Assembly (NCBI RefSeq): GCF_001886955.1
Contig: NZ_CP016804.1
Span: 868,001 to 932,000, forward strand
Reading direction: 5' to 3'
DNA from: Halodesulfurarchaeum formicicum
GTDB lineage: Archaea; Halobacteriota; Halobacteria; Halobacteriales; Halobacteriaceae
DNA length: 64,000 bases
Below are positions 34,831 through 62,339 of this stretch, in pieces. How positions within the stretch are numbered: the first letter of the stretch is position 1; each line of letters begins with the position of its first letter. The notes below the pieces were generated by a model. It was not told the DNA's origin, did not search any database, and saw only the letters and a program-made list of their open reading frames with translations. The position numbers were made by a program, and so were the translations under genes.

Positions 34831-34883
34831 CTCCAAGTCACCGAATCGATGTCCAGCACCGGAAGGAATCTGTCGGTTCGAAC

Positions 34884-36588: not shown

Positions 36589-37117
36589 TGGACAGTCTAA
36601 ACGACGTTTGTTCTCGAGAAGGATTTACCGATTGTATAACCTGGTTAGAACTGATAAGAGCCACACATTCATTCCGACTTTCTATCACAGATAGTTGGTT
36701 CCGGTGTCTGTTATATGCCTATTGGGAATTAGATGGGAGGAAATACGCATATATCGAGACAACAGGGCAGGGCTGGGAAACGGGTGGTTGTCCAGAAGAA
36801 TATCAGAACACCGAGGCATATTTATACCAAGTTTAGGATTCGCGAGATTACTTCATACCAAAAAACCTGTGCAAAATACGAGCTCTGGATTCAGCATGGC
36901 TCCAAGAACATATCCCCATTTGAGGATTACAACAGAAACAGTGTACTCTATTCGCCTTTTGATTACGACTGTCATTCTCTCAAGGTAACAGACGCGATTC
37001 TCTAACGTTCACTTCTCCTCGCAGATGTATGGATAAAAGGTGGCCTCGGCACTCACGACTCACAATCTATCCATAGGCCTAGGTGCATCCAGTCGTAATT
37101 GTCTGTTGTGAGACACT
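36589..37117. other. AT-rich gap holding the left boundary repeat
   Basis: 529 bases with no convincing gene; the possible frames lack codon bias. It contains the left copy of the boundary repeat (36941-37055) and the ATAGGCCTAGGTG sequence (37073-37085), then the promoter region of the gene at 37118. Confidence 0.5.
36941..37055. repeat. Boundary direct repeat, left copy
   Basis: About 115 bases, from GTGTACTCTATTCG to GCCTCGGCACTCA, aligned by eye with 44443-44563 in the same orientation at roughly three matches in four, with a few gaps. Confidence 0.65.
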
Positions 37118-37651
37118 ATGAGTGATGAAGAGCCACAGCAGACCGAGTGGGAGACCGAGGTCGGATTGTCCGAAGAGACGGCCTATGTCGCGTTGTACCC
37201 CAGTCGCAAGCACGCCGAAGAGTGGATGGAAGAGGCAGAAGAGCAGGGATACGGGAGTCGGTCGAAGTATATCTACGAACTGATACAAGAGGCCCGCGCT
37301 GCCCGTCAAGAGGGGTTCCTCGCGTACAGTCAGAACGAGTCGAAGGTCGAGGAACTCCAACTGCAAGTCGAGCAGTTACAGGACGACCTCGAAAACGCGC
37401 AGAACTCCGAACCGGGTGAGATCGATATCGAACACGAGGAGTTCGTCACCGCGTTCCTCACCGACCGCTACCAGGAGTTCGAAAGCATTCTCAAGGAAGT
37501 TACTGGGAGCGGCGTCCTCACGGGAATCGTCAAAGACGCCGTCGAGGAGCAACTGTTCGACCTCGCGGAAGAGAACAAGGTCGAATACAAGCAGGGCTAC
37601 GGCTGGCGACTCGCTCACGACGACGCTGATGCGGAGGTGGTTGAGGCATGA
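37118..37651 (+). CDS. Coiled-coil protein preceding integrase
   Basis: 177 residues. An N-terminal ribbon-like region with SRKHAEEWMEEAEEQGYGSRSKYIYELIQEA resembles a DNA-binding RHH-type fold; a coiled coil (VEELQLQVEQLQDDLENA) follows, then a helical C-terminal domain. It overlaps the integrase gene by 4 bases, so it may be a recombination-directionality or accessory factor. Confidence 0.65.
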   Translation: MSDEEPQQTEWETEVGLSEETAYVALYPSRKHAEEWMEEAEEQGYGSRSKYIYELIQEARAARQEGFLAYSQNESKVEELQLQVEQLQDDLENAQNSEPGEIDIEHEEFVTAFLTDRYQEFESILKEVTGSGVLTGIVKDAVEEQLFDLAEENKVEYKQGYGWRLAHDDADAEVVEA

Positions 37652-38595
37652 CGGGCACGACCCGCGAGAAGATTTACGAGAACGAGCACGACGCGGTCAA
37701 CGACTTCATCGAACGTAAGCAGGCGATGGGTCGCAGTCGTCGAACGCTCAACGCCTACTCCCGAACGCTGAAATCGTTCTTTCACGAGGAGTTCCCCGAC
37801 CTCGCGCCCGAAGATGTCGAGGTGCGCCACATCGAGGACTACGTCGGGAAGCTCGCTGCTCGTGACCTCTCGCAGAACACGAAGCGTAGATACCTCGAAT
37901 CGCTGTCGTCGTTCTACGGGTGGACGATGAAGCGCACGCGGTTCGAGAATATCACCGGCAATCCCGCAGCGGTCGTCCTCGAAGAAATCCCGCAGAAGTA
38001 CCGCGAGCGTCCCGATTGTGCGACGTGGGAGAGCGCGAAGAAAATCGTCCACAACATCGCCGACCCGCGGAACAAGGCAATCGCCGTCATTCTCGCAAAG
38101 ACGGGTTGCCGGATTCGTGAGGCACTCGAAATCGAACAGGATGACCTGATGCTCGACGACGGATTCATTCGTCTGCGAGAGCGCAAGGGTGGGAGTCAGA
38201 CGGTCGTCCCTGTGGACGAGGAAGTGAAACACGCCATCAAGCGGTATCGCCTCGTTCGCCCGGACAACGACTCCGAGTACCTGTTCCTGAGCATCCAGGG
38301 CAATCGTGTCCAGACGACACAGGTGCAGCGGGCTGTTCGTGACGCTGCGGTCAGGGCAGGCGTGATGGAAGAAGGCGAGACGCGCTTTCACCGCAAGTTC
38401 ACGCCTCACACGTTCCGGACGGTATTCACGACCCTAATGCGTCAAGAGGAGATGAGTGACCACATCTTGCAGTACATCAGAGGTGACGCCAATAACCGAA
38501 CCATGGACGTGTATACTCGTGTCTCGCGGGACGAGGCAAGGCAGGAATATCTTGAGTGTATCAAGTCTCTCGGTTTGTCTGTCAGTCGACGGTGA
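37648..38595 (+). CDS. Tyrosine recombinase / integrase (second)
   Basis: 315 residues. N-terminal core-binding domain (DAVNDFIERKQAMGRSRRTLNAYSRTLKSFF), catalytic R in LAKTGCRIREAL, HxxR in TPHTFRTVF, Tyr in TMDVYTRVSR. It is not closely similar to the integrase at 31294. It lies at the left end of the cluster bounded by the direct repeats, close to the left repeat, as expected if it moves the cluster. Confidence 0.9.
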   Translation: MTGTTREKIYENEHDAVNDFIERKQAMGRSRRTLNAYSRTLKSFFHEEFPDLAPEDVEVRHIEDYVGKLAARDLSQNTKRRYLESLSSFYGWTMKRTRFENITGNPAAVVLEEIPQKYRERPDCATWESAKKIVHNIADPRNKAIAVILAKTGCRIREALEIEQDDLMLDDGFIRLRERKGGSQTVVPVDEEVKHAIKRYRLVRPDNDSEYLFLSIQGNRVQTTQVQRAVRDAAVRAGVMEEGETRFHRKFTPHTFRTVFTTLMRQEEMSDHILQYIRGDANNRTMDVYTRVSRDEARQEYLECIKSLGLSVSRR

Positions 38596-38604
38596 GGAGA
38601 TCCG

Positions 38605-39096
38605 TCACTTCGTTCTGCAACTCTGTTCGTCCGGCAGCAGCTCCCCGACCGTCGCCGCGAACACCTCCTCGCTATTGACTACGCCGCGGATGAGCGTGTC
38701 CCCGGTCCCAAACGCCGCTACGAGCTCGCGACAATCACCGCACACCGACACCGGCTCCTCCTCTGACACGACAGTCCCCTCGATGATACTGCCGGCACCG
38801 TCCGACAGCGCCGTTTTCACCGCTAGCTCCAGCTCGTGGCTGGTCTGCCGCTGGTCCGGCGTCTCGATCCGGGCCGCTGCATAGATCGCACCACCTGCTG
38901 TCAACACCGCAGCACCGCGGTCCGGGCCGTCGCCGACAGTGTTCGGGGCGACATCCTCGGCCGCCTCCAGCAGTTTCTCCGCACGGCTCTCGCTCTCATC
39001 GGTCAGCGGGATACCGAGATCGTCCAGCGACAGCCGCCGGACCTTCCCCACAGACCGGATACGATTCTGGTCGCCGAGTCGACTCTGGTCACTCAT
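38605..39096 (-). CDS. Cytidine-deaminase-like protein with altered active site
   Basis: 163 residues. The core GAAVLTAGGAIYAAARIET...SVCGDCRELVAAFG aligns with cytidine deaminases (VGAALLT...IENAS, then PCGxCRQ). The zinc-binding Cys pair is C119/C122. The first motif, normally [C/H]-A-E, reads SHELEL (H87, E88, E90), so the usual spacing of ligand and catalytic Glu is lost. It could deaminate a (deoxy)cytidine nucleotide, another base, or be inactive. Last gene of a five-gene operon; overlaps the previous one by 8 bases. Confidence 0.7.
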   Translation of the reverse strand: MSDQSRLGDQNRIRSVGKVRRLSLDDLGIPLTDESESRAEKLLEAAEDVAPNTVGDGPDRGAAVLTAGGAIYAAARIETPDQRQTSHELELAVKTALSDGAGSIIEGTVVSEEEPVSVCGDCRELVAAFGTGDTLIRGVVNSEEVFAATVGELLPDEQSCRTK

Positions 39097-39691
39097 GCTC
39101 TCTGAAATCTTCTGAACCGAGGTCTACCGCGCCCATCTCGTACAGGTGCTGGAACTCGTCCGACGCACGCCCGTAATAAAACTCCTCGCAGAACGCATCG
39201 ACCAGTGTGTTCCCGTCCGGTGCGTGGGCGCTGAACGTGTAGTCTCGGAATAGGAACCCGGCCAACGCCTCAACCGGGATCCGCGTACTATTGCAGAAAT
39301 GGGTACATGCCGGTATCCAATGTTCATCGACAAGCGACCACGTTGCCCCGTGTCCTGATCCGTCGACGTTCGCCACATCCCGGAGCGGAGAGGTGTCGCG
39401 CAGGGAGGATGGCGCGTACGTCCCGGCGACGTTCTCATTGAACCGGAGCGTCGGCCAGTTCGGGTCATCTGCCTCTTTGAACGGGACAAAGTACGGCTTA
39501 TCGCCGTCAGCAACACGAAAAAACGCGTCGAAGAACTCGTTGTACTCGAACTCCAGGCCCGTCGTCCGCCCCTCCTGTCCAGCTTCGCGGACCAAGCACA
39601 AGTACCCCGGGAAGTGGCGGTGGACTGGTAGCTCCACCAGCTCGTCGATGCAGTCGCGGACCGCCTCTTCGGTCAATACGTATTCTGTCAT
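39089..39691 (-). CDS. Unknown protein of the methyltransferase/GHKL cluster, 200 residues
   Basis: Starts MTEYVLTEEAVRDCIDELVE. Alpha/beta, soluble, with conserved-looking blocks (GLEFEYNEFFDAFFRVADG, GATWSLVDEHWIPACTHFC, LFRDYTFSAHAPDGNTLVDAF). No nuclease or other motif I can name with confidence. It follows the methyltransferase gene by 15 bases and overlaps the deaminase-like gene, so it belongs to the operon. A restriction or effector subunit is possible by position only. Confidence 0.6.
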   Translation of the reverse strand: MTEYVLTEEAVRDCIDELVELPVHRHFPGYLCLVREAGQEGRTTGLEFEYNEFFDAFFRVADGDKPYFVPFKEADDPNWPTLRFNENVAGTYAPSSLRDTSPLRDVANVDGSGHGATWSLVDEHWIPACTHFCNSTRIPVEALAGFLFRDYTFSAHAPDGNTLVDAFCEEFYYGRASDEFQHLYEMGAVDLGSEDFREHE

Positions 39692-39706
39692 GGTCTCATG
39701 GGATGA

Positions 39707-41254
39707 CTATCCATCGAAGTGGGAGTCGTCTAGGTCCACGCCGACGGCCCGGTAACCGAGCTCGTCCGCGGCTTCGAGCGTGGTCCCAGACCCCGCAAAC
39801 GGGTCCATCACGAGGCCCGGTAGCTTGTCGACCTCGCAGTCGCAGTCCGTCCATCCCTTTGTCGTCGGCTTCGGGAACGTGAACTCCCGGAAATACCCGC
39901 CGAGGACCTTCTTCGCGTTGTCAGCCAGCTCCTGCACGTCCTCGGCGTTCCGACCGGCGCCGTCCTGGAATTCCTTCGCCTTCCCGGCATCGGAGATGCC
40001 GACCTTCTGGATCGCGTTGAGGTGCTTCTTCTCCAGCTGAACATCATCGATGGCCTCCTCGGCAGCACGTTCCGAATCGTACACCTCCTCGCTCTCCGTG
40101 ATGGTGTCGTCACCGGAGGTCAGTCGCCAGCGGTACTCGCCGTCCTCGTCTTCGTACGCCTCGAAGTTATCCCGGTTTTTGGCCACCTTGTAGATCTCCA
40201 GCGCCCGCCTGGCCTGTGTCCGGGACGTGTCGAGGTTGATCGGGTCGCGCTCCAGCTCCCGGTCGGCGGTGTGGCCGCACTCCGGACAGACGGCTGGCGG
40301 GCAGGCGAGCGTGATAATCCGGCGGACGAGGTCGGTCGGGAACGGCGCCAGGTGGTCGCCGGTGTTCCGGTCGTGCGCGATCTCCCAGACATCGCCACCG
40401 TTCGATCCATTGCCGTACGCCTTCGAGTACCCGTACAGGTCGTAGAAGTAGTCGTGATCGTTGGTCAGATGGAAGATGGCTTCATGTCGGTTCGCCAGTC
40501 GATCCTTCGCTGAAGACGGGATACCGTTCTTTTTCTCCCAGACGATCTCGTTCCGGATGGTCCAGCCGTCGTTCCGAGCTTCCTGCACGAACATCCCCGG
40601 GATGCCGGTGATGCTGCGGCGCTTGTACGTATCCCCGACGTTCAGGAAGATCGAGCCGCCCGGCCGGAGGAACTCCCGCCACTTGTCGAGCGCGGCCACG
40701 AGGTCCTCGACGTACTCCTGTGCCGAGTCCTCCTGTCCCAGCTGGTCCTCGACCCCGTAGTCACGTTTCTGCCAGTACGGTGGCGACGTGATGATCAGAT
40801 CAACGCTGTTCGGTGCGACATCGATCGCGTGCTCGTGGTCAGCGTCTACGTCCGGCTCGATCTTGGTCGCGTCCGCCTGGTGGACGGTAAGTTCCGCGCC
40901 GTCCGGTTTTGTTCCGATCGGTCCCTGCGCCGTCTTCAGTTCATCGAGAGACGGTGGCTCCCGCCGGAGTTCATCGAAGAACTCCTGCAGCTCCTCCAGT
41001 AACCCCTTCGCCTGCTCGGGGTGCTCCTGGAATACTGACTCGATATCATGGACGTCGGATGCACTAGAGACTGACCCCTCGAACCCGCCCAGCTGCATCT
41101 GCTTCTCGATAAGCGCCTTCCGGTCGCCAAGAAGGTTCTCGGATAAAATGTCGCTGAGAGCGTCAATCTCGTCATCAAGGTCGCGTTCCGCTAGTGCCTC
41201 GCTAACCACATCATCGTAGGAAAGTGAAGAGTCGCCAGATGCATCATCACTCAT
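39707..41254 (-). CDS. DNA methyltransferase (amino-methyltransferase, SPPYW type)
   Basis: 515 residues. After an acidic helical N-terminal extension of about 130 residues comes catalytic motif IV (LIITSPPYWQKRDYG), a target-recognition region, then the SAM motif DPFAGSGTTLEAADELG near the C-terminus: the beta-class order. The SPPYW motif suggests N4-cytosine or N6-adenine methylation. A Cys cluster (CPECGHT ... DCDCE) brackets an insert with GAGRNAEDVQELADNAKKV, shared with the methyltransferase at 48158. Third gene of the GHKL operon. Confidence 0.88.
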   Translation of the reverse strand: MSDDASGDSSLSYDDVVSEALAERDLDDEIDALSDILSENLLGDRKALIEKQMQLGGFEGSVSSASDVHDIESVFQEHPEQAKGLLEELQEFFDELRREPPSLDELKTAQGPIGTKPDGAELTVHQADATKIEPDVDADHEHAIDVAPNSVDLIITSPPYWQKRDYGVEDQLGQEDSAQEYVEDLVAALDKWREFLRPGGSIFLNVGDTYKRRSITGIPGMFVQEARNDGWTIRNEIVWEKKNGIPSSAKDRLANRHEAIFHLTNDHDYFYDLYGYSKAYGNGSNGGDVWEIAHDRNTGDHLAPFPTDLVRRIITLACPPAVCPECGHTADRELERDPINLDTSRTQARRALEIYKVAKNRDNFEAYEDEDGEYRWRLTSGDDTITESEEVYDSERAAEEAIDDVQLEKKHLNAIQKVGISDAGKAKEFQDGAGRNAEDVQELADNAKKVLGGYFREFTFPKPTTKGWTDCDCEVDKLPGLVMDPFAGSGTTLEAADELGYRAVGVDLDDSHFDG

Positions 41255-41407
41255 TGTATAATCCTGGGTCCGTCCTCGTACTTAGTGACTTCGACATTCC
41301 GTTCGACGAAGCGAGGCGACATAATGGTTTTGCCGCCACGGGGCCAGTCGACGACCCACTCGACGAAGCAAGCCGATACGTTGACTCGTGGCGGTCCTGG
41401 CATCCGT

Positions 41408-42151
41408 CTATCCTTCTTGCTCTTTGAGCGCTGCCTCTATCTGGGCGTCTTCTGGTATGTTCTCGTCGTTGACCCGACACAGATGGTACGCGTGCCTTAC
41501 GAACTTCACCTTCGAGCTTGGGTCCTCGTACGTTGGGAAGCGGCGGTTGACCTGCGCCGCCACCTCGTCCAGTTCTGGGTTCGGCTTCACGTCCTTCCAG
41601 ACACGGATCTCCCGGTTCATCGGGACGAACCCGACTTGCTGCGCGTTCTCCAACACGCTCCGGGCATCCTCAACGGAGTCGGCGTTGTACTTCAGCTTCC
41701 CGAGCATCGTGACGCGGCCGGTCTCGGGTAGATCCCGGTCGGGAAACAGCTCGTAGATGTTGTTCGCGGTGAGGAGCGTATCACCATCGACATCGTCACG
41801 CGGGATGAGCTCACCGAGCGCCTGGTGTGAATCGTGTTTCAGTTCGCTCACCACGTCCCGTTCGTGAAGGAGTCGTCCGACCTCCCAATGCCACTCAACG
41901 CTCCCCAGTTCGTATTCCTCCGAGATATCATCGACCGCGATCAGGAAGTCGCCGAAGACGTCCGTGAACTCGATACGGGCTTCGTTCTCTTCCTCGCTCT
42001 CGTCGTAGAAATCTTTGCTCCGGTTCAGCGCGAGCTGCTTCTCGGTGTCTCTCCGGACGCGGCGTTCAACGATCTTTACCTCCCAGACTTCCTCTTCGGC
42101 CACCTTGTCGTAGACGAACGAGATGAGTTCGGTGGTGTCCTTTGTGCTCAT
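41408..42151 (-). CDS. Unknown protein of the GHKL cluster, 247 residues
   Basis: Mostly helical and charged. The stretch EYELGSVEWHWEVGRLLHERDVVSEL loosely recalls the N-terminus of DUF1016/YhcG proteins (YWxIGR), but too weakly to assign. A second part (TANNIYELFPDRDLPETGRVTMLGKL, then PNPELDEVAAQVNRRF) is unrecognised. Sits 65 bases after the GHKL ATPase and 153 bases before the methyltransferase. Confidence 0.6.
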   Translation of the reverse strand: MSTKDTTELISFVYDKVAEEEVWEVKIVERRVRRDTEKQLALNRSKDFYDESEEENEARIEFTDVFGDFLIAVDDISEEYELGSVEWHWEVGRLLHERDVVSELKHDSHQALGELIPRDDVDGDTLLTANNIYELFPDRDLPETGRVTMLGKLKYNADSVEDARSVLENAQQVGFVPMNREIRVWKDVKPNPELDEVAAQVNRRFPTYEDPSSKVKFVRHAYHLCRVNDENIPEDAQIEAALKEQEG

Positions 42152-42216
42152 GATGTGGGGGTGTTCCTCCAGTGGTTATGCATCGGTTCGCTACCGACGA
42201 AGTTAGTCATTAGCTT

Positions 42217-44274
42217 CTACCCGACGACGATCTCCTCGACGTGGCTCTCCAGTTCGGCGTAGATCTCCTCATGCTCCTGCCGGATGTCAAACGCCTCGTC
42301 TAGCAGGTCGTTCCGTGTGTCGGCGTCCTCGGCGGCTTCCTCCAGCTGGACGAATTTTAGTTCCTCGATGATGGCGCGGGCGATCTTCTTAGACCCGAAC
42401 TCCTGGTGCTGTTCCTTCCGTTGCTCCTCGCGGCTCGCGGTCTCGTAGATCTCCCGCCACTTCGGGTGCGCCTTGTTCAGGTTCACTGTGAACCCACCGC
42501 CGCCCTCGACGAACGCCTCGGCGAAGATGTGGCTGTCCTGGTCGGCGATCTCGTTGATCTCCTTGAAAATGGTCGCGGACTCGTTCGAGTCCCCGTCTTC
42601 GCCGGTGTCGTCGCCGTCACCGTCGCTGTCGCCGCCGGGGCCGCTGCCCCCCTGGCCGTTACCCTGCGGCGGCTGGTTCCCGCGGGGCTCGACGTCGACC
42701 GGCAGGATGCTCAGGCCCTCGTCGATGACGTCGTCGTCGGTCGGCGTCCAGTCCGCGGGGTCGGTGTCTTCCGGGACGCCGGAGATGGAGGCCGTGATAT
42801 GGTACCAGCCCGGCGTCTCGGCCTCCCAAGTGAAGTCGGCGGTCTGGATCTCGTCCGGGATGGCCGAGACCGGTATCTCGTCGTCCAGATGCAGGGCCGT
42901 GTCGAGTTCATCGCCCCGGACGGTGATGTCATGGATGACGTACTCGTCGACGCTGGGCGTCTCGGGCGGGTACACGCGCGTCTCGATGGGGATGTCGCCA
43001 ACTGACTCGGGGTACTCCTCCGGGTTCAGCTTGAGCAGCGAGCCGTCGTCGTCGGACCGTAGCTGGTCCTCGCTGCCGCCCTCGTCGATGGTGAGTGCGC
43101 CGTGCTCTGCGAGGTTGACGAAGTCTTGGAAGTACTCGTCGTTCAGGCTGTCGACGGCCTGGTTGACGGTGTCGCGCAGGAGCCGGTTGATTTCCTGTTC
43201 GTCGGAGGCGCTCTCCTCCGCGAAGTGGTTGGCGTGGACCTGCTGGGTGACGCTCCGAAGACCAGTCTGCCGGTTCCGGATGTTGAGCTTCTGGTGGGAC
43301 GGGTCTTCGAGTTCGGCGCAGTCATCGATCCGACACCAGGCGATCATCTCCGGGTCGTCGTTGTAGATGGAGGAGACGTGCGGTTCGTAGCTGTCGACCA
43401 TCATGACCGGGCCGTCGAAGTAGTCGTTACCCTTGAAGAAAGCGATGCCGTCCCAGGGGTAGTCGCCGGCAGCCCGGCCGAACACGACGTCCTTGAGGAC
43501 GTACTTGTCGTCGCCGATGGTGAACTCATGCTCATCGATCCGCTTCAGTTCCTCGTCCATCAGTTCGTCGAGCGTCGGGAAGTCCGGCGTATGGCGCTGG
43601 ACTTCGCCGTCCTCCTCCACGAGGTAGACGAACTCGACGTCGTCGCGGCTGAACAACGGCGTGAACAGCTCGGCCAGCACGCGTTCGACCTCATCCCAGT
43701 CGGAGAGCGTGTCGAGCGCGCTCTGTTCGAGGCCGACCAACTTCAGCAGCGTCCCCTCCGGGCCGGCGAGTTGCGGCGCGTCCTGGATGACGTCCTCCTC
43801 GGGGTCGTCCGCGATCTCCCGGGGCGGCACGGGCTCGGGGAGTGTGGTGCCGTCCTCCGGAAAGAGGATGGTGGCGAGGCGCTCGCCGTCAGTGTTCAGC
43901 GTCTCGATGTACAGCTTCTCGGTACTGGCAGCGACGGCGAACAGGCCGCGGCCCTCGGACCCAACGTTCCCGCCACCGGACTTCTGGGACGAGGTGGTGT
44001 CGATCTCGGGGACGACATCGGCCATCACCTCGCGGGACATGCCGCCGGCGTTGTCGGTAATCTCCGCGTACCGTTCGTCGACGTTGACGCGGAACGTGAT
44101 GCGCAGCGTCCGCCCCTCATCGAGCGTACCTGCGTCCATCTGGTTGGCGTACTCGTCCTGCGAGTTCTGAATCGGCTCAACGATGGTCGGTGGGCGGCTA
44201 ACGTCGTAGTTGTCGCGGATGTGTTCGATGAGACGAGGCGTGTTGGTACGGATATCAGTTCGTTCGAGGGACAT
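42217..44274 (-). CDS. GHKL (Hsp90/MutL/MORC-like) ATPase
   Basis: 685 residues from ATG 44274. N-terminal Bergerat ATPase: N-box EPIQNSQDEYA (E33, N37, D40), DNAGGMS (D74-G78) and the lid GGNVGSEGRGLFAVAAS (103-117). A transducer-like region follows, then a beta-rich domain (450-545), a Gly/Asp-rich linker (about 550-580, GGSGPGGDSDGDGDD) and a helical C-terminal domain. Start was chosen because upstream in-frame codons are AT-rich and unrelated. GHKL ATPases of this kind occur in prokaryotic restriction-like systems as ATP-driven DNA clamps. First gene of the five-gene operon. Confidence 0.82.
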   Translation of the reverse strand: MSLERTDIRTNTPRLIEHIRDNYDVSRPPTIVEPIQNSQDEYANQMDAGTLDEGRTLRITFRVNVDERYAEITDNAGGMSREVMADVVPEIDTTSSQKSGGGNVGSEGRGLFAVAASTEKLYIETLNTDGERLATILFPEDGTTLPEPVPPREIADDPEEDVIQDAPQLAGPEGTLLKLVGLEQSALDTLSDWDEVERVLAELFTPLFSRDDVEFVYLVEEDGEVQRHTPDFPTLDELMDEELKRIDEHEFTIGDDKYVLKDVVFGRAAGDYPWDGIAFFKGNDYFDGPVMMVDSYEPHVSSIYNDDPEMIAWCRIDDCAELEDPSHQKLNIRNRQTGLRSVTQQVHANHFAEESASDEQEINRLLRDTVNQAVDSLNDEYFQDFVNLAEHGALTIDEGGSEDQLRSDDDGSLLKLNPEEYPESVGDIPIETRVYPPETPSVDEYVIHDITVRGDELDTALHLDDEIPVSAIPDEIQTADFTWEAETPGWYHITASISGVPEDTDPADWTPTDDDVIDEGLSILPVDVEPRGNQPPQGNGQGGSGPGGDSDGDGDDTGEDGDSNESATIFKEINEIADQDSHIFAEAFVEGGGGFTVNLNKAHPKWREIYETASREEQRKEQHQEFGSKKIARAIIEELKFVQLEEAAEDADTRNDLLDEAFDIRQEHEEIYAELESHVEEIVVG

Positions 44275-44879
44275 ATTCTGTTCGTGAATCACAACAAGGG
44301 CACCATATGGAATAAGGGTTCCCTCAGCGGGGTGGAAGTGAAAAACGAGAGTTGATATCCACATTAACGGTTTCCGAAGAGGAAATCAGTCAGTTATTTA
44401 TCCAAGTAGTAAAGCAATAATAGGCCTATGTGACGCCTCAGAGCGTACTCTATTCGACCTCTAATGACGACTGTCCTTTCTCAGAGGGCAGCAGACGAGA
44501 TTCTATGACGTTCGTTCACTTCTTTCCCGAAATGTATGGATAGAAAGTCGGCCTCGGCACTCATTAGGCCCCTCCCGATTCAGAATCCGATTGCTGAATT
44601 CGCGACTCTGCTGAAACCTATCACCTATTAAGAATTTCAAAAAGACTGGAATTCGATAATTGATTCGAGTGATTTTGCAACTAAGTACACCCAAAAATCG
44701 TGGAAACTGAATGGATTTTGCAATCACTGCCAGAATCTGGGACGGAAATTTGGGCCCCCTCACTGGAGTACGGAAAAGGAATCACAGGACCCGTATCAAA
44801 GCGGGAATATCTTTGGAGAAAAGTCAGCCAAATTCGGATTGCCTAGTGTATTAAGTTCCAAGGGGGCTAACTCATACCT
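44275..44879. other. AT-rich gap holding the right boundary repeat
   Basis: 605 bases with no convincing gene. It holds the promoter of the GHKL operon (read leftward), ATAGGCCTATGTG (44420-44432), the right boundary repeat (44443-44563) and, near 44845-44865, AGTGTATTAAG, a possible TATA-like box for the next cassette. Confidence 0.5.
44443..44563. repeat. Boundary direct repeat, right copy
   Basis: About 121 bases, GCGTACTCTATTCG to GCCTCGGCACTCA, matching 36941-37055. With it, ATAGGCCTANGTG occurs on the inner side of both copies (37073-37085 and 44420-44432). Confidence 0.65.
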
Positions 44880-45107
44880 ATGAGCCAGGTCAGGGAAGAA
44901 TGGGATGACGAGGATATCGAAAAAGTGGAGCAACAAATAATTACTGAACTTTCTAGTGGTAGAAGGCTCACATTTGAAGAGCTAAATGATCGTCTTGAGG
45001 GAATACCTGAGCCTATGATTGAGGATGCAGTTCGGAATCTACTTCAGACTCAGCGGCTTGCAGAGACTGGGGATTGGAGCTATTACGCCACTAAGGCAAC
45101 AGCCTAA
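44880..45107 (+). CDS. Small winged-helix-like protein of the dGTPase cassette
   Basis: 75 residues: EVEQQIITELSSGRRLTFEELNDRLEG-type helices, then EDAVRNLLQTQRLAETGDWSYYATK, which reads as a compact winged helix. AT-rich codons unlike the halophile core. It precedes the hydrolase by 14 bases and may regulate the cassette. Confidence 0.6.
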   Translation: MSQVREEWDDEDIEKVEQQIITELSSGRRLTFEELNDRLEGIPEPMIEDAVRNLLQTQRLAETGDWSYYATKATA

Positions 45108-45121
45108 TTTGGAGACATTTA

Positions 45122-46600
45122 ATGGCGGGGTCTCCAAAAGAAAGTGATCGATTGTATAGTATTCACATAGGGGATTATATATCAGGTCCTTTTCAAGAAT
45201 GGGGAAGAGCTCCTTTTGAACGGGATTTGGATCGGGTGAAATATACTAGGGCTTTTCGAAGACTAAAAGATGTTACTCAGGTGGCAAGATCCGGTGAGTC
45301 TTACTTATATCATGACCGTCTTTCGCACTCTCTCAAAGTTGGTCAGGTGGGACGAAGAATTGCAGAATTGGCGCTGCGAAGGCGAGAGAAGGGCTTTATT
45401 AACGACGATGAACTCACGACAAATACATCTCCAAGATATCCCCTCAACGAAATTCTATTTCCGCCTTCAGTTGAAGCGGCTTGTTTGGCACACGATATAG
45501 GCCATCCCCCTTTTGGGCATATTTCAGAGGATCTCCTTAACGAACTGCTGAATGACAGCACAAACGGAGACATTGGTTATGAGGGCAATGCTCAGTCCTT
45601 CCGGATTGTGACAAGACTTGCTGACGGGAATCATTCTCCTAATGATGATGGAATTGATGGAATGGGTCTGGGCCTAACGAGATCAACTCTAAATGGGATG
45701 CTGAAATATCCATGGGGTGAGAATGATAACAGAAAATCTGAAAAGGAAAAATGGGGCTATTACCCTACAGAAAAGGCCGCATTTGAATTTGCCCGGGAGA
45801 CTACTCCAAGCGGGAGAGAAAGGTCGCTTTCCGCAGAAATCATGGATTATGCTGATGACTTAACTTATGCAATCCACGATGTAACTGATTTTTACAAAGC
45901 CGGCCTAATACCTCTTGATCAATTACTCAGAGAGGCTAAAAAGGGCTATACTGGCCCGAAACCAGCAATTAATGAGTTTGCCTCATATCTTGATTCAAAA
46001 AAACGTGAATTAGTGTATACCTCGGTCAAACAGTTTTTCAGAATGTTGGGGAACAGAGTGGGACAATACACCGTGGATGGGTCTTTGATGTTTTCTCCTT
46101 TCAACGGGACTCCCACTGAACGAAGAACTGTGGATGGTTTTACATCTATGCTAATCGGAAGGTATATTAGTGGGAATGCAACGCAAAAGCCAGAGTTACT
46201 AAAAATTGAATGGGGACCTAATGGCTATCATCTCCAGATTTCACAGGAAGCTGAAGAACAAATTTGGCTATTACGTCAACTAACAGATTACTATGTGATT
46301 AAAGACTCCTCCTTAATGGCTCAACAAAGGGGCCAAAAGAAGATCATCAAAAATCTCTTTGAGGAACTCCTATCCGAAACGGCCATGGATGACCTGGATC
46401 AATCTGCGATTCCTGAACCGTACCGCTCATGGCTAGGGGAGGACAGCCAGCGTGCAGGTGAATTTTCGAAGGAAAAAAATCAAAGAGCCAGGGTGGTTGC
46501 AGATATGATAACTACAATGACGGAACCCCAAGCGATTGAGCTACACGATCGGTTATTGGGTTATAATCCGGGAGCACTCCAGAACCATATAATCCGTTGA
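45122..46600 (+). CDS. dGTPase-like HD-domain deoxynucleotide triphosphohydrolase
   Basis: 492 residues. HD-domain metal motifs: HDRLSHSLKVGQVGRRIA (first His), ACLAHDIGHPPFGHISED (HD plus following His) and EIMDYADDLTYAIHDV (third Asp). RVKYTRAFRRLKDVTQV at the front is also typical of dGTPases. Family members hydrolyse dGTP or other dNTPs to deoxynucleoside and triphosphate; some are phage-defence enzymes that starve replication. Codons are strongly A/T-ending, so the gene was acquired. Together with the next gene it forms a probable defence pair. Confidence 0.88.
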   Translation: MAGSPKESDRLYSIHIGDYISGPFQEWGRAPFERDLDRVKYTRAFRRLKDVTQVARSGESYLYHDRLSHSLKVGQVGRRIAELALRRREKGFINDDELTTNTSPRYPLNEILFPPSVEAACLAHDIGHPPFGHISEDLLNELLNDSTNGDIGYEGNAQSFRIVTRLADGNHSPNDDGIDGMGLGLTRSTLNGMLKYPWGENDNRKSEKEKWGYYPTEKAAFEFARETTPSGRERSLSAEIMDYADDLTYAIHDVTDFYKAGLIPLDQLLREAKKGYTGPKPAINEFASYLDSKKRELVYTSVKQFFRMLGNRVGQYTVDGSLMFSPFNGTPTERRTVDGFTSMLIGRYISGNATQKPELLKIEWGPNGYHLQISQEAEEQIWLLRQLTDYYVIKDSSLMAQQRGQKKIIKNLFEELLSETAMDDLDQSAIPEPYRSWLGEDSQRAGEFSKEKNQRARVVADMITTMTEPQAIELHDRLLGYNPGALQNHIIR

Positions 46601-46628
46601 AAGCGTAGTGAACGAAGCAAGTCTTACA

Positions 46629-47075
46629 ATGTCTCCTGCAGTAGCATACTACCGTCCAGACCCGACACTTGAAGAGCGGTTCGATGAAATTAACAGCGAA
46701 GTACAAAACGCGGCCGGAGCAATTGCACAGAACACTCGAGACAAGATTCTGAACTTTTTCTTGGTAGCCCACGCAATAATTGAGGAACATTCTGCGAAGC
46801 TCATCTGGTCTGAGATATTCAATTCAGGGGCCCAAACCCAGGAATCACTAGACTACGTTATGGAAGATATGAATCAATCGCATCGAGAAGATTTACTATT
46901 CGCCTCCGAGGTTATCAACGGCTCCCTATATACAAAGCTTCAGCAAACTCGTGGAGCACGAAACGAATTGGCACATAATTATGGACAACCGCTAAAATGG
47001 AACGGCGATTTGAAGCAGAAGGCAAAGACGGCGATTGAAGGATTCGACGAGCTTCACGCTCGATGTGTCCCTTAA
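46629..47075 (+). CDS. HEPN-like protein (candidate RNase)
   Basis: 148 residues from ATG 46629; a GTG seven codons earlier is possible. All-helical, with RGARNELAHNYG near residues 108-118: R111-x4-H116 is the HEPN catalytic signature. HEPN proteins act as RNases in toxin-antitoxin and other defence systems. It follows the dGTPase-like gene by 28 bases in the same AT-rich DNA. Without structure prediction the HEPN call rests on the motif, length and helix pattern. Confidence 0.65.
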   Translation: MSPAVAYYRPDPTLEERFDEINSEVQNAAGAIAQNTRDKILNFFLVAHAIIEEHSAKLIWSEIFNSGAQTQESLDYVMEDMNQSHREDLLFASEVINGSLYTKLQQTRGARNELAHNYGQPLKWNGDLKQKAKTAIEGFDELHARCVP

Positions 47076-47201
47076 CCCTGTTGAGTTATTAAGGTAAGGG
47101 AACACCCCTCAATCGTGCCAAATACACACTTTGAATTCAGCAGTTTGCCTATTTCAAAAATACGGATGACCGGCCCCAATATGGCGTAGTTTTCTCTTTT
47201 T

Positions 47202-47459
47202 CTACCGCTGCTTGAACTGGAACTCGTGGGGCTCGTACTCAAGCGACCAGTGCCGCGTCTCGACCTGCTCCGCGATCTCTTGGGCGACCTTCGGCGAGAT
47301 CTCCTCGTGACCGAGTACGTCTTCCAGCTCCTCAAGGAGCGACCCCACTGCATCCGCACTCAGTAGCACGGCCCGGGTCTTGTTCACGTCGAGCCGCTCC
47401 GCAGCGCTGTCGATCACGTCCTCGCGATGGCTGTAATCGCCGTCAGTGCGTATTCTCAT
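47202..47459 (-). CDS. Small haloarchaeal mobile-element protein (DUF7692-like)
   Basis: 85 residues, start MRIRTDGDYSHREDVIDSAAERLDVNKTRAVL. A ribbon-like start and helical middle suggest DNA binding. The N-terminal pattern HREDVIDSAAERLDVNKTRA is one seen in small proteins of haloarchaeal plasmids and viruses; the DUF assignment is from memory. Divergent from the membrane protein at 47517. Confidence 0.6.
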   Translation of the reverse strand: MRIRTDGDYSHREDVIDSAAERLDVNKTRAVLLSADAVGSLLEELEDVLGHEEISPKVAQEIAEQVETRHWSLEYEPHEFQFKQR

Positions 47460-50559: not shown

Positions 50560-50611
50560 CGAACATCGCCTCCTCGGCCTCCACGATACCTCCGTCAACT
50601 TCCTCACTCAT
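50552..50611 (-). CDS. Micro-protein of the early operon, 19 residues
   Basis: MSEEVDGGIVEAEEAMFDE. The ATG overlaps the AbrB-like gene and the stop overlaps the next start. Very short, so it may only couple translation of its neighbours. Confidence 0.3.
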   Translation of the reverse strand: MSEEVDGGIVEAEEAMFDE

Positions 50612-50825
50612 CGCCAGTCACCTGCAGATCGATCACGACGCGGCCGTCGTCGTAAACGGTCACGAAGACCTGCTGAGTAGTGTCGACCTCACCGTCCTCG
50701 AGGAGACCCAGATCTCGCATAGCCTCGCGAGGCATGGAGATCCCGGGATCGCCCCGGCTAAGGTCTCGCAGCGAGCGATGCCCGGCCGCCAACATCCGGC
50801 CCGATTTTTCGAGGGCTTGTGGCAT
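50604..50825 (-). CDS. AbrB-like small regulator
   Basis: 73 residues. RSLRDLSRGDPGISMPREAMRDLGLLEDGEV with a final beta-hairpin (QQVFVTVYDDGRVVIDL) resembles the swapped-hairpin AbrB/SpoVT fold. First gene of the leftward early operon, opposite the late operon, so it may control the switch between them. Confidence 0.6.
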   Translation of the reverse strand: MPQALEKSGRMLAAGHRSLRDLSRGDPGISMPREAMRDLGLLEDGEVDTTQQVFVTVYDDGRVVIDLQVTGDE

Positions 50826-50845
50826 ATATCAACATTCTAGAACTG

Positions 50846-50858
50846 CCTATATATTGAT
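50846..50858 (-). promoter_or_regulatory. TATA-like box of the early operon
   Basis: ATATATAGG on the minus strand lies about 24-30 bases before the ATG at 50825. The neighbouring GCTGGTAAC and repeated CAAGCTG sequences may be operator parts. Confidence 0.5.
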
Positions 50859-51190
50859 AGCAACAAGCTGGTAACAAGCTGAAAACAATCTGTTTTTCCG
50901 CGTTTAAACCTCCTGTAAGTGGCTTTTGAGTACGTGAGCGGCACTGCTGAAATCTTGGACTGCCGGCCGCGGAGTCGCAGCCGCTCCCAAACACGCATGA
51001 AAACAAACCCCTGGGACACTGGCCGTCGGAGGGATTGCTTGTGACCGACCGCGACGACCTTCCAGACCTCGAGGGCATCGTCGCGACTGAGGAATTTCGG
51101 CGATACGTTCGCGATCTCCGGCAGACCTGGGTACCGTCAGATAACACCGCCGTCTCTCAGGCGAAAACTGAGAACTCAACGACTCAGAAT

Positions 51191-52789
51191 ATGTCTACGA
51201 ACCCCGACAGCAACAGCACAGAGATCGACCAGCAGATGATGACCCGGCGCGGCGTCATGAAAGCCGGCGCAGCTGCCACGGCGACAGCGGTCGCGATCGG
51301 CGCGGGAGCCGGCTCGGTCGGTGCCGTTTCCGGCCTCGACGTCGACGGCGACTACGTGCAGGCGCCGTTCATCAAGGCGGCGGTAACAGTCGCCAATCAC
51401 GAATCGGACTTCGCTCCGCTGGACTTCACCGACGACTCCGGCGAGCGCGACTCGCTCTCGAACTACGGCGCGGAGATCGCACCCCGCGACGAGGAAGACA
51501 CGCCGCACAACCCGATCACCCTCATGGCGTCGGCTTTCGACGCTGAGGACTACCAGGCGTTCCCTCGCGAGGAGACGTTCGAGAACGCAGACGGCGACGA
51601 AGAAGCCGTCACGGCCCTCGATGCAACTCACTGGACCGTCGACGAGGCCAACACCGCCGGCTCGATGACTGTCGAAGACGACACCAGCCCGGCAGACGGC
51701 CCGGCACTCCACGTCTCGACATCGAGCCAGGGATCGGGCGATACCGCCGTGGCGACCTTCGACAGCTCCTACGTCGACATCACGAGCGGCGAGGATCGCA
51801 AGCTTTTCCAGCTGGTCTTCGACGCGAATACAGTCGAGTCGGGCGTGGTCGTCACGTTCCGATTCATCGACGAGGACGGCGACGTTCGCGAGGCCATCAT
51901 CGATCCGGCCGGTGACACGGCCAACGACGGCACGATCGCGACGACCACGGTCGAGAGCGGGGTCTACCAGGCCCGTCTCGGCGACCTGCCGCAGACGGAC
52001 AACGGCGATGGGACGTTTAACAACCTCTCGGAAGTCGAGATCGAGGTCGCCGAGGCCAACGCAGACCTGTCGATCTACGGCTTCAACCTCGAGCGCGAGA
52101 GCGAGTGGGTTTTCGGAACTGAGGAGTTCACCAACGCAGACGACGAACTCGACACCCAGGAGATCACGGAGCCGACTGGCTCCTTCTCGATCACCGGCCT
52201 GGACACGATCAACGAGCCCCTCGCATCCGCGGCCATCGCCGACGTCGAGTACGACATCGAGCTGGTCGCGAGCAAACTCCCGGACGATCATGTCGAGTAC
52301 GAGTGGTCAGAAGCGGAGCGCTACGACCACCCGTATCGGCTCCAGATGGTCTACAACTTCGAGGAGCTAACGGCCTACGACCTGGACTGGACGCTCGAAG
52401 GCCTCTACGATGAAGTGCTGTTCCCCGCGTCGCGGTTTGTCGAGGCCGGACTCGCGACCGGACAGAGTGACATGGTCGAACTCGCCGAGATCGACGACGA
52501 CGAGGTTTCCCTGACGGACCGGACTTCGGCCTACGGCGATGCGTCGCTCGACGAGGAGATCGAACTCTCCACGGCCATCCAGCCGGGGGATTTCGATGCG
52601 ATTTACATGGACATCCTATACACCGAGGATGAGCGTTCCAGCGCGGAAGACGAGGCGGCAGCTGGCCCGATCGACGGTGAGTCGAGCGGCCCGCTGGACT
52701 ACCTGTTCAGCCTGCCCGGCATGGCGATCTCGGCGATCGTGGGCTACCTAGGCCTGTCGAGCCTGGGATTCATCGGCGGGTCGAGGTGA
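51191..52789 (+). CDS. Tat-secreted spike-like surface protein
   Basis: 532 residues from ATG 51191. The leader has twin Arg at 19-20 (MMTRRGVMKAG) and a hydrophobic stretch ending GSVGAVSG. A large acidic beta-rich ectodomain follows. The C-terminal helix LDYLFSLPGMAISAIVGYLG anchors it. Tat leader, about 530 residues and a C-terminal anchor match pleolipovirus spike (VP4) proteins. An in-frame GTG at 51041 with a good GGAGGG site would add 50 codon-biased residues. First gene of the late operon. Confidence 0.7.
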   Translation: MSTNPDSNSTEIDQQMMTRRGVMKAGAAATATAVAIGAGAGSVGAVSGLDVDGDYVQAPFIKAAVTVANHESDFAPLDFTDDSGERDSLSNYGAEIAPRDEEDTPHNPITLMASAFDAEDYQAFPREETFENADGDEEAVTALDATHWTVDEANTAGSMTVEDDTSPADGPALHVSTSSQGSGDTAVATFDSSYVDITSGEDRKLFQLVFDANTVESGVVVTFRFIDEDGDVREAIIDPAGDTANDGTIATTTVESGVYQARLGDLPQTDNGDGTFNNLSEVEIEVAEANADLSIYGFNLERESEWVFGTEEFTNADDELDTQEITEPTGSFSITGLDTINEPLASAAIADVEYDIELVASKLPDDHVEYEWSEAERYDHPYRLQMVYNFEELTAYDLDWTLEGLYDEVLFPASRFVEAGLATGQSDMVELAEIDDDEVSLTDRTSAYGDASLDEEIELSTAIQPGDFDAIYMDILYTEDERSSAEDEAAAGPIDGESSGPLDYLFSLPGMAISAIVGYLGLSSLGFIGGSR

Positions 52790-52795
52790 TCGTCG

Positions 52796-53173
52796 ATGGC
52801 CGCTGAAGACTGGATCGAGCGGGCTCAGGGCCTCAACCCTGCCGAAGCGACGAGCCAGGGTATTTCAGCCCTGATCCTGGCGATTTTCGGGATCGCAATC
52901 ACGATCTCGGAGGCCTTCTCGGACGGCCTCGCCAGGGTGCTGGGAGTCATGGCTGACTTCCGGGACTTCGTCGCGGCCTTCTTCCAGAGCCCGATCACGA
53001 TCCTAAATGAGACGGCAGATTTCACGGCATTCTCGCTCACACAGGGGGACTGGGCGTTCTTCGGACCAGGAACCTGGGCCGTGGGCGTGGCCTCGATCGT
53101 GTTCGGATTCTATGTGTGGACCGTCCTGGACCCCGACATTCCGATCATCGACAACCTGCTCCCGTGGAGGTAG
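52796..53173 (+). CDS. Small membrane protein (VP3-like position)
   Basis: 125 residues with membrane segments at about 20-42 and 95-115. A Shine-Dalgarno GAGGTGATC overlaps the upstream stop. In pleolipoviruses a small membrane protein lies beside the spike gene; here it is on the other side. No sequence match can be claimed. Confidence 0.7.
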   Translation: MAAEDWIERAQGLNPAEATSQGISALILAIFGIAITISEAFSDGLARVLGVMADFRDFVAAFFQSPITILNETADFTAFSLTQGDWAFFGPGTWAVGVASIVFGFYVWTVLDPDIPIIDNLLPWR

Positions 53174-53193
53174 CCACCATGATCGCCCCGCTC

Positions 53194-53205
53194 AAGGAGG
53201 TGATC
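53194..53205 (+). promoter_or_regulatory. Perfect Shine-Dalgarno site
   Basis: AAGGAGGTGATC is fully complementary to the 3' end of 16S rRNA and precedes the GTG at 53210 by 4 bases. It fixes that start. A 13-codon frame from ATG 53179 overlaps it. Confidence 0.7.
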
Positions 53206-53209
53206 GCCC

Positions 53210-53557
53210 GTGGTGGATAGCGCCGAGTACGTCGACGGGGATTCCATCAAGTGGGCAGCTCTCGCCGGGACGCTGGTTTCGAGTTACGTCCTGGTAGCGC
53301 TCGATGGCCTGACGAACTTCCTGTTCGAGCTTCTCACGGTTCCGGCGACGCTCCTCGAGAGTGCGTTGACCTGGTTGGGGGAAACCCTCGGCCTGGGCTT
53401 TACTGTTCCAGCTGGAACCATCGAGCAAGCTTGGGCAGTCGTCGCCGACCAGTTCCCGATAGCGGGGCCGTTTGACTGGATTCTCGGTGTCGTCGTGCTC
53501 GCGGTGTTCTTCATCGCGGTGAACTGGATGGTCGATCGCGTAAGGGAGGGACTCTGA
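53210..53557 (+). CDS. Small membrane protein
   Basis: 115 residues, start VVDSAEYVDGDSIKWAALAG. Three hydrophobic segments (about 14-35, 40-55 and 88-108). GTG start chosen from the Shine-Dalgarno site. Its stop overlaps the next ATG by one base. Confidence 0.7.
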   Translation: MVDSAEYVDGDSIKWAALAGTLVSSYVLVALDGLTNFLFELLTVPATLLESALTWLGETLGLGFTVPAGTIEQAWAVVADQFPIAGPFDWILGVVVLAVFFIAVNWMVDRVREGL

Positions 53558-53994
53558 TGGCCGAAGATACTGAAACCACATGGGGCGCGATCAGTGGGGT
53601 TCCCGGATGGATCAGCGATCCGCCCCAGATCCTCACTGACCCGCGAGCGTTCCTCGCGACGGTCGTCGTCGGCTGGATCTTCGACCTCTGGAGCCAGGTG
53701 CTCGGCTACATCGAGTCGCTCTGGACGACGCTCGCGAACATCCCCCAGGTGGCGATCATCGAGCCGGTACTGACGGCCTTCGGGATGCCCGGAGACGCAC
53801 TGCAAGAACTGTGGCGCGATATCGGGCAGATGGCCGTTGAGGTAGCAGAACCAGCCGGCGTCTTCGCCCCGATCGTGTTGGTGGGGGTCTGGCTAATTCC
53901 GGCACTAATCGCGATCACGCTGCTGTACATGATCTGGGGCTTCCTCGAGACGTACCTCCCGGTCGACAGCATCCCATTCGTGAGGAAACTATGA
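53557..53994 (+). CDS. Small membrane protein
   Basis: 145 residues; hydrophobic segments at about 28-50 and 108-135. Between them is an amphipathic helix (FGMPGDALQELWRDIGQMAVEV). Overlaps neighbours by 1-4 bases. Function unknown. Confidence 0.7.
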   Translation: MAEDTETTWGAISGVPGWISDPPQILTDPRAFLATVVVGWIFDLWSQVLGYIESLWTTLANIPQVAIIEPVLTAFGMPGDALQELWRDIGQMAVEVAEPAGVFAPIVLVGVWLIPALIAITLLYMIWGFLETYLPVDSIPFVRKL

Positions 53995-54269
53995 ACGACT
54001 GGAAAGACGGGCTGCTCGGCGGGGGCGCCTTGGGCGTGCTGGCAGACGTGACGCTGAACGGCGCCGACCTGATCTTCGGAAGCTTCGACCTGGTGATGGG
54101 CTCGGTCGATCTCCTATACCCCGCGATGGCTGTACTGGCACGAATCGCCCCGGACGTGGGATGGCTCGACCAGGCTCTCGTGACTGATCTCCTGGTCGTG
54201 ATCGCGATCCTGTACCTCGTCCATCTCATCAACCGACTCCGACAACGACTGAAAAATGACAGAGCATAA
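53991..54269 (+). CDS. Small membrane protein
   Basis: 92 residues with hydrophobic stretches at about 20-45 and 65-82, ending in a basic tail (HLINRLRQRLKNDRA). Overlaps the previous gene by 4 bases. Confidence 0.65.
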   Translation: MNDWKDGLLGGGALGVLADVTLNGADLIFGSFDLVMGSVDLLYPAMAVLARIAPDVGWLDQALVTDLLVVIAILYLVHLINRLRQRLKNDRA

Positions 54270-54345
54270 CACGACACGACCGTATCGAGCCCGGTCCTCG
54301 AGGCCGGGAATCACAGACGGGGGTGAGTCATGGACCGTCGCGTAA
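54256..54345 (+). CDS. Possible micro-gene, 29 residues
   Basis: MTEHNTTRPYRARSSRPGIT, hydrophilic and basic. It fills the gap between two late genes and overlaps both. No other support. Confidence 0.25.
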   Translation: MTEHNTTRPYRARSSRPGITDGGESWTVA

Positions 54346-54992
54346 CCCTCTCGGCCGCTGTCTTCCTGGCGGTGACTGTAATCGGCTGGCAGTCCTTCAA
54401 CCTCGATTTGAAGGTCCTAATCCCGGCAGCAGCGGTCCTCTCGGGCTTGTCGCTGATCGGAGAATCCGCAGCTCGGAGAAAATCGGTTTCTGCAAAGGGG
54501 CTCGCCGGGTCGACCGCAAGCATCATCCAGGCCTTCGCGATGGTGCTGGCAGTGTGGGCGATCTGGGAGTACGTCGAGGACCCGATCACAGTCGCAAAGG
54601 CCAACTGGTGGCTCGCCGTGCTGATCGTCGTTGGCCTGTTTGCCTACTGGTACCTCCAGCATCGTCGTGAGGTATCAAATGCGAAGACCGCTATTAATCG
54701 AACGCAGCAAACGGCCAAGCGTTCGATCTCCAGCTGGACGGAGCTTATCATCGGAATCGGCGTGCTGGCCCTGACAGGTGCCTTCGCGGTCGCTTCTGGC
54801 ATGTTGGAAGCCCTGGGACCGTATGCGGGCGAGTTGGGCTACCTGTTCACGGTCTTCATCGGCTACGTACAGCTCGGCGGAGATGCCGGTGGCACAGTCG
54901 CCTCGCTGATTCCCAGCCTGGAGCCGATGCAGTGGGTCGGGGTGACCCTGTTCATCGCGGCCATGGCCTACTACATTCGCTATCAATCATGA
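54330..54992 (+). CDS. Polytopic membrane protein, 220 residues
   Basis: About six hydrophobic segments: near 5-22, 28-45, 55-80, 88-105, 130-152 and 195-215. GGGGGTGAG precedes the ATG. No family recognised. Part of the run of membrane proteins after the spike gene. Confidence 0.7.
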   Translation: MDRRVTLSAAVFLAVTVIGWQSFNLDLKVLIPAAAVLSGLSLIGESAARRKSVSAKGLAGSTASIIQAFAMVLAVWAIWEYVEDPITVAKANWWLAVLIVVGLFAYWYLQHRREVSNAKTAINRTQQTAKRSISSWTELIIGIGVLALTGAFAVASGMLEALGPYAGELGYLFTVFIGYVQLGGDAGGTVASLIPSLEPMQWVGVTLFIAAMAYYIRYQS

Positions 54993-56626: not shown

Positions 56627-57434
56627 GACCGACGTGCAACAGTCCCGACGCCCGTCGCTCCGGAAACTCCGGATCGACGTGCAGGAGATGCGCACCGAGC
56701 TCGAAGCGGGCTTTGACTCACCTCGCGAGGCGTTGGCCTGGTTCCAGCGCCTGACAGTCCGAACCCGTGGCGAGATCCCCCAGCGTCGGTATCAACAGAT
56801 CGCCGAGGAGTTCCCACCGACGCCAGGCCACGATCGAGGGCCGTTCCTCGAGGCGCTGCTCGCCGATCATGCCGCGCCCGACACGGCCTACGATAGCCAG
56901 GAAGTGCGGCGGTACTTCTGGGCGTGGTCGGTGCTCCCGGCGTTCCACCGGGCACTCAGACAGCTCCGAAAGGATGCTGGCAGCTACGTCGGCGAGACAA
57001 AAGAGGCCCAAGACGTGAGCCGGATGCGGTATATCGCGATGCGCCCGGCGATCGACGAGATCGATCGCGACCAGGCAGGAGTCCTCGAGGCGTTCCTCGA
57101 TGGCTTCGACGAACCGGCGGACGTTCTCAACTGGGGCGAACGCCTTCAGTTGGCGACCCACGGCGAGCCCGTCCAGCCGGATCTCCCTGGTGGATTCGCG
57201 ACTCGGCTCTACACCGAGGGCGTGGCGGCAGACGTGCTCCCGGAGACCTCGAATACCGCGATGCTCACTCGAACGGACGACACTCACACGCGGGCTCGCG
57301 AGTGGCTGGCTGCGAAACTCCTCCTCCCCGCGTTCAATCGTGGGGTGCGTGACCTGGCGGGCCGGGCTGGCGAGGAAGCCGATACAGCTGGCGATGAGAT
57401 CGGCGATGCCCCCTCGTGGGAGGTGGGACGATGA
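56619..57434 (+). CDS. Soluble helical protein preceding ATPase, 271 residues
   Basis: Arg-rich, mainly helical, no membrane segment or catalytic motif. Two similar halves seem present (TELEAGFDSPREALAWFQRL and AFLDGFDEPADVLNWGERL), each followed by a TRGEIPQRR / THGEPVQPDLP-type loop, so it is probably an internal duplication. Overlaps the ATPase by 4 bases and may be its partner. Confidence 0.65.
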   Translation: MSKTDVQQSRRPSLRKLRIDVQEMRTELEAGFDSPREALAWFQRLTVRTRGEIPQRRYQQIAEEFPPTPGHDRGPFLEALLADHAAPDTAYDSQEVRRYFWAWSVLPAFHRALRQLRKDAGSYVGETKEAQDVSRMRYIAMRPAIDEIDRDQAGVLEAFLDGFDEPADVLNWGERLQLATHGEPVQPDLPGGFATRLYTEGVAADVLPETSNTAMLTRTDDTHTRAREWLAAKLLLPAFNRGVRDLAGRAGEEADTAGDEIGDAPSWEVGR

Positions 57435-62337: not shown

Positions 62338-62339
62338 CC

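Follow-up and report, generated by a model that had tools for sequence, protein, structure and literature searches.

A three-gene AT-rich insertion in a mobile region

Within the 64,000-nt stretch of the Halodesulfurarchaeum formicicum genome that we analysed (the window), three AT-rich open reading frames lie at 44880-47075, all on the + strand (Table 1). A 14-nt gap separates the 75-aa gene from the dGTPase gene. The original prediction described these genes as A/T-rich in a G/C-rich setting, and their foreign composition was borne out: the GC contents of the 75-aa, 492-aa and HEPN-motif genes are 46, 44 and 47%, against 60% for the window, and their GC3 is ~0.4 (0.38-0.46), against ~0.8 (0.76-0.88) in flanking genes.

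Table 1. Features of the cassette, in window coordinates
Feature	Position	Strand	Evidence or remark
Small acidic single winged-helix protein (predicted), 75 aa	44880..45107	+	AlphaFold2, leave-one-out HMM
dGTPase-family HD triphosphohydrolase, 492 aa	45122..46600	+	TIGR01353, PADLOC dGTPase, Pfam HD and HD_assoc
HEPN-motif protein; 148 aa from ATG 46629, 155 aa from GTG 46608	46608..47075	+	RNELAH motif
GGAG, candidate ribosome-binding site of dGTPase	45111..45114	+	by eye; 7 nt before ATG 45122
TATTAAG, possible archaeal TATA-like element	44849..44855	+	by eye, weak; 25-31 nt before first ATG
AT-rich inserted block, ~2.9 kb: 3 genes and 560-bp AT-rich upstream region	44317..47207	.	identity breaks, GC

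Two breaks in sequence identity delimit the cassette. Positions 38625-44316 are 93% identical to the Salarchaeum japonicum plasmid NZ_CP085325.1, with the match ending at 44316, and identity to a same-genus genome (G001) returns at 47208, at 95%. GC is 42-48% over most of the block in between. Because plasmid identity stops and same-genus identity resumes at these two points, we read the block as an insertion. No Rfam match was found inside it, and promoter-like and terminator-like sites in the window were no more frequent than expected by chance.

The wider region 34168-47207 is a cargo hot spot: G001 shares both of its flanks, with only ~1.7 kb between them and one 523-aa lipoprotein-like gene. 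An integrase gene lies at 37648-38592. At 38608-44274 are five genes on the - strand, 93% identical to the S. japonicum plasmid, that encode a deaminase-like protein, an unknown protein, an N6/N4 methyltransferase with DUF1508, a second unknown protein and a 685-aa GHKL-ATPase-like protein; this mobile methyltransferase and GHKL cassette is possibly an undescribed defence system. A metallo-beta-lactamase (MBL) and a lamin-tail-domain lipoprotein at 35143-36588 gave weak PADLOC matches to LmuA and RT-associated MBL, which probably reflect the MBL fold only. On the other side of the cassette, a run of membrane and large proteins almost without family matches (51035-62633) probably represents the backbone of an element that has integrated; over 50589-52962, identity to G001 is 99%.

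The dGTPase and the HEPN-motif protein

As originally predicted, the 492-aa protein is, judged by its sequence, a dGTPase-family HD hydrolase with its catalytic residues intact. It scored 232.3 bits against TIGR01353 (curated cut-off 152.35), matched the PADLOC dGTPase profile over residues 28-486 (1.1e-79), and matched PF13286 (3e-11) as well as Pfam HD and HD_assoc. The metal motifs, said to be complete, are indeed so: H69, H124-D125, H133, E136 and the aspartates of IMDYADD are invariant in an alignment of 14 haloarchaeal relatives. Hydrolysis of dGTP would be the expected activity. Both the dGTPase family and its part in defence are already known. Within the family, the window enzyme falls in a divergent subfamily, since on a profile of its clade solved dGTPases all score at most 193 bits, compared with ~385-658 bits for intact clade members. 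The dNTP triphosphohydrolase chains 9p8s-9p8v, which we take to be the CloA enzyme of the Clover system, scored 152-161 bits on this profile. Against NF041026, the NCBI antiphage_dGTPase exception family, the window enzyme reached 193.6 of the 400 bits required.

Relatives of the dGTPase occur in just 17 of 392 genomes of the class, in 15 of 86 genera. Clade members are patchy in distribution, AT-rich and often adjoin integrases, and the neighbours of other members include integrases, a resolvase, AlpA, an Eco57I-type methylase, a Schlafen-AlbA gene and a CBASS cyclase. Such a neighbourhood is typical of defence cargo, short of proof of defence. Together, the family and this mobile, defence-type context support the earlier suggestion that the enzyme is likely antiviral.

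The 148-aa protein had been described as HEPN-like with an R-x4-H motif. This motif, RNELAH at residues 111-116, conforms to RNxxxH, and R111, N112 and H116 are the sole positions that stay invariant when 11 very divergent relatives are aligned. The relatives also gave weak matches to several Pfam HEPN families (RiboL-PSP-HEPN at 1.3e-5, Cthe_2314, MAE_28990, AbiU2 and HepT). Because the RNxxxH residues are the only invariant ones and the relatives match several HEPN families, the protein likely belongs to HEPN. By itself it stayed under every curated HEPN cut-off of Pfam and NCBIfam (HepT in Pfam, E=0.085, 13 of 23.5 bits required; HepT in NCBIfam, E=0.0044, 16.9 of 60 bits required). The best match of the HEPN profile to solved structures was a stretch of CRISPR-associated proteins (E 0.003), and the fold from a single-sequence model, all-helical but with a pLDDT of 50, is of no value. 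Relatives were found in 39 of the 392 class genomes, at ~20-35% identity, and none in viral contigs. Four stand-alone haloarchaeal HEPN-motif proteins of ~167 aa (L003, with L002, L004 and L005 at 45-68% identity to it) have no partner gene in common. The window protein thus shares RNxxxH with the HEPN toxins HepT, RiboL-PSP-HEPN, AbiU2 and MAE_28990, families that its relatives match; it differs in its scores below the cut-offs and in having no MNT or other antitoxin partner beside it.

The original prediction joined the dGTPase and the HEPN-motif protein in one system, where nucleotide depletion and RNA cleavage by a HEPN RNase would act jointly and the small protein would regulate both. The layout in the window fits this idea, with three co-directional, tightly spaced genes in one insert bordered by two relatives, a HEPN start just 7-28 nt past the dGTPase stop, and an intact RNxxxH. 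The distribution of homologues argues strongly against it. We surveyed dGTPase neighbours in the 392 class genomes plus at least 80 bacterial and 33 viral loci, 130 dGTPase loci in all, with ~13 kb fetched around each dGTPase relative as far as the contig reached. Among the matches listed, the HEPN profile had a single match near the 130 dGTPases, and this was the window's own; conversely, none of 15 loci of HEPN relatives (each ~12 kb) contained a dGTPase within ~6 kb. In most other members, the gene 3' of the dGTPase either runs on the other strand or lies over 80 nt away, and in many it is convergent, so that the operon there ends at the dGTPase. The HEPN relatives, for their part, are distant and without a common partner. 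Since homologues of the two genes in the loci listed never co-occur outside the window, an outcome that the original prediction itself had named as fatal to it, dGTPase and HEPN as a conserved system is refuted, and HEPN is ruled out as a conserved partner of the dGTPase; that the two nevertheless act jointly we regard as very improbable. The HEPN-motif gene is probably independent toxin-like cargo or a local add-on, unrelated to the conserved pair. No description of a HEPN-dGTPase system was found in the literature searched, which had few subscription journals.

A small winged-helix gene upstream of one dGTPase clade

Wherever the sequence upstream of a haloarchaeal relative could be read, an ORF of 64-97 aa lies on the same strand, 6-47 nt 5' of the dGTPase; BLASTP detected no similarity between these ORFs and the window's 75-aa protein. 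Among the matches listed, a small upstream ORF was also present in 11 bacterial or proviral members of the dGTPase clade (Altererythrobacter, Martelella, Novosphingobium, Pseudomarimonas, Tabrizicola, a contig labelled Paceibacterota and five IMG/VR contigs). Over haloarchaea, Proteobacteria and proviruses, 28 of the 30 testable clade dGTPases had a small winged-helix ORF directly upstream, and 0 of ~98 dGTPases outside the clade had one, both counts being among the matches listed; L069, whose upstream sequence was not readable, was left out of the testable members. Small-protein profiles run on the 10,984 ORFs of the 130 listed loci gave 28 matches, each directly 5' of a clade dGTPase, of which 25 came from the training set, one (L063) is a near copy, and two (L083 and L074) are independent. 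The small gene is not indispensable, because two clade members, L079 and L082, and the near relative L080 are without it. No winged helix-dGTPase fusion was found among the loci listed; the long ORF of L082 was considered as one and rejected, its N-terminal extension not being winged-helix.

The small proteins are short, and their sequences diverge, with a mean identity of 19-26%. Nevertheless, hhalign matched the haloarchaeal and bacterial profiles at 94% and E 1e-7 (a single comparison), and a leave-one-out HMM recovered all 25 small proteins, the window's 75-aa protein at 2.6e-9. On the dGTPase tree, which does not include L081, the linked enzymes form one side of a branch, with 1 label change versus 20 in shuffles; SH-aLRT support is 99 for the haloarchaeal group and 100 for the bacterial group, but only 48 for the branch that joins them. 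Small-protein and dGTPase distances correlate (Mantel r of 0.68 in haloarchaea and 0.73 in bacteria, the latter with p 0.0002; p<=0.0004 for both), which indicates long joint inheritance. We conclude that what is conserved is an operon of two genes, with the small winged-helix protein first and a dGTPase of a distinct subfamily second. The original prediction had mentioned the small winged-helix gene but made nothing further of it; this gene, and not the HEPN-motif gene, is the partner that is conserved.

Some loci carry damaged copies of the pair. In L074 (6006-6410), a haloarchaeal dGTPase is truncated to 134 aa and the small winged-helix gene upstream is still intact. A Salinirubellus salinus plasmid (L054 / L063) carries two winged-helix-dGTPase pairs. 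In one of them the dGTPase is broken into two reading frames; the other is intact and has a CBASS cyclase at a distance of ~2 kb.

The small protein had been called winged-helix-like, and this agrees with its predicted structure. AlphaFold2 (alignment A6, 12 sequences) modelled the 75-aa protein as a canonical winged helix (H1-H2-H3-wing; elements H10-24, H32-38, H44-56, E60-62 and E67-70) with a pLDDT of 83 and without a dimerisation segment. Foldseek returned fold-level matches only, all at E>0.001, including the archaeal Rpa2 WH, a Sulfolobus DNA-binding protein and ZBP1 Z-alpha domains. The best match of the small-protein profile to solved structures was the DNA-binding domain of a penicillinase (BlaI-type) repressor, at 3e-4; PHROGs held no family for it, NCBIfam nothing convincing and Pfam nothing above its cut-off. 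The haloarchaeal small proteins are acidic, as proteins of halophiles generally are, and the bacterial ones have a pI of 4.5 to 11. Upstream of the small gene we found no consistent inverted repeat or shared palindromic operator, which weakens simple autorepression and has no bearing on direct binding. A winged-helix partner of a dGTPase seems undescribed so far, as no paper on one was found in the literature searched, with subscription journals mostly outside it.

Regulation of the dGTPase and comparison with known systems

We consider it probable that the pair forms a mobile antiviral module for dNTP depletion, composed of a dGTPase and a dedicated winged-helix regulator. A small single winged-helix protein (60-80 aa) would be translated first and the distinct-subfamily dGTPase after it. 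The winged-helix protein would silence the operon or the enzyme as long as the cell is healthy and permit action on infection; the dGTPase would then cleave triphosphate off dGTP (or related dNTPs), which would stop viral DNA replication. Plasmids, proviruses and islands would carry the module as cargo. In this account the pair itself, its conservation and clade specificity, the co-divergence, the intact catalytic residues and the mobile context are observed and the winged-helix fold is predicted, whereas dGTP hydrolysis, the antiviral role and how, and in which direction, regulation works are inferred. The strict clade coupling, the joint divergence and the failure to find an operator give a slight lean to control at the protein level: the winged-helix protein may regulate the enzyme directly, as partner or inhibitor, which we place just above even, and weighed against this, a classical autorepressor of the promoter comes just below even. 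More tentatively, and with the chances against it, the protein could be physically part of the enzyme, as a subunit that keeps the dGTPase inactive and detects infection through nucleic acid of the virus or an intermediate of replication.

If the small protein were instead an ordinary autorepressor, the dGTPase would be a stand-alone defence enzyme of known kind. A dGTPase of this sort is already known to serve in defence as a single gene (PADLOC and DefenseFinder models; PMC9090908), and the regulator-effector gene order, the winged-helix fold and the BlaI domain as nearest solved profile relative would all be expected. However, no shared palindromic operator lies upstream, the model has no segment for dimerisation, and the strict tie to one dGTPase clade, from archaea to bacteria, exceeds what is usual for swappable repressors. 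The strong acidity of many of the small proteins also counts against an autorepressor, with the reservation that this is general in halophiles. Taken as a whole, we find this account unlikely.

We are similarly doubtful of a toxin-antitoxin-like arrangement, in which the winged-helix protein would bind and neutralise a toxic dGTPase until lost or inactivated on infection. The small gene comes first, spacing is tight or overlapping, and the pair co-diverges; dGTPases of the CloA type are toxic when their partner is missing (PMC12265719), and L074 retains its intact small gene beside a truncated dGTPase. Yet the clade dGTPases of L079 and L082 persist without the small gene. Outside defence, the dGTPase might act on dNTP pools in the service of mobile elements' replication, or damage the host pool in competition. 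dGTPases have housekeeping roles too, several members lie on IMG/VR contigs and plasmids, and the region in the window, too, is an integrated element and encodes an integrase. Many members, though, lie outside any recognised virus, defence genes are among the neighbours and the distribution is patchy, and we judge a role of this kind quite improbable.

The regulated dNTP-depletion module that we favour has counterparts among described systems. With the single-gene defence dGTPase (Tal et al. 2022; 'dGTPase' in PADLOC and DefenseFinder; Shewanella SpdGTPase), the window enzyme shares the HD-hydrolase family, the catalytic residues and a mobile, patchy distribution; it differs in its divergent subfamily and its coupled winged-helix partner. 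The winged-helix/WYL regulators BrxR and CapW (PMC9122589, PMC9122588) are likewise small regulators of DNA-binding type encoded with a defence operon, whereas the partner here consists of a single winged helix of 60-75 aa, lacks a sensor domain and keeps to one dGTPase clade.

Clover pairs a dGTPase, CloA, with a nucleotidyltransferase, CloB, and is activated by dTTP and inhibited by p3diT (PMC12265719). CloA is toxic without CloB, so that defence dGTPases need restraint, and before Clover was described, the way in which antiviral dNTPases are kept harmless ahead of infection had been called unknown (PMC12265719). The same two-gene logic, a dGTPase with a dedicated regulator, applies here, and the HD motif and H/E dyad are shared, CloA H126/E129 matching H133/E136 of the window enzyme by motif spacing. 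The partner there is a nucleotidyltransferase, whereas here it is a 75-aa winged helix and the cassette holds no CloB-like gene: its genes contain no nucleotidyltransferase domain, and a crude motif scan of the clade neighbourhoods gave no candidate beside a dGTPase. Without an adjacent CloB-type nucleotidyltransferase, membership in Clover is ruled out.

Adjacent defence-like genes need not form one system, as the HEPN-motif gene cautions. The winged-helix-dGTPase pair would give archaea a dNTP-depletion defence that is regulated, of which we found no description in the literature searched. As a second, unrelated partner, genetically tied to a single dGTPase clade that spans haloarchaea and Proteobacteria, the winged-helix protein offers a small, two-gene and directly testable answer to the question of restraint. 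Should it prove to be a subunit of the enzyme that senses infection, antiviral dNTP depletion would have, in archaea and bacteria, a protein-based switch, unlike the nucleotide-signal control of Clover.
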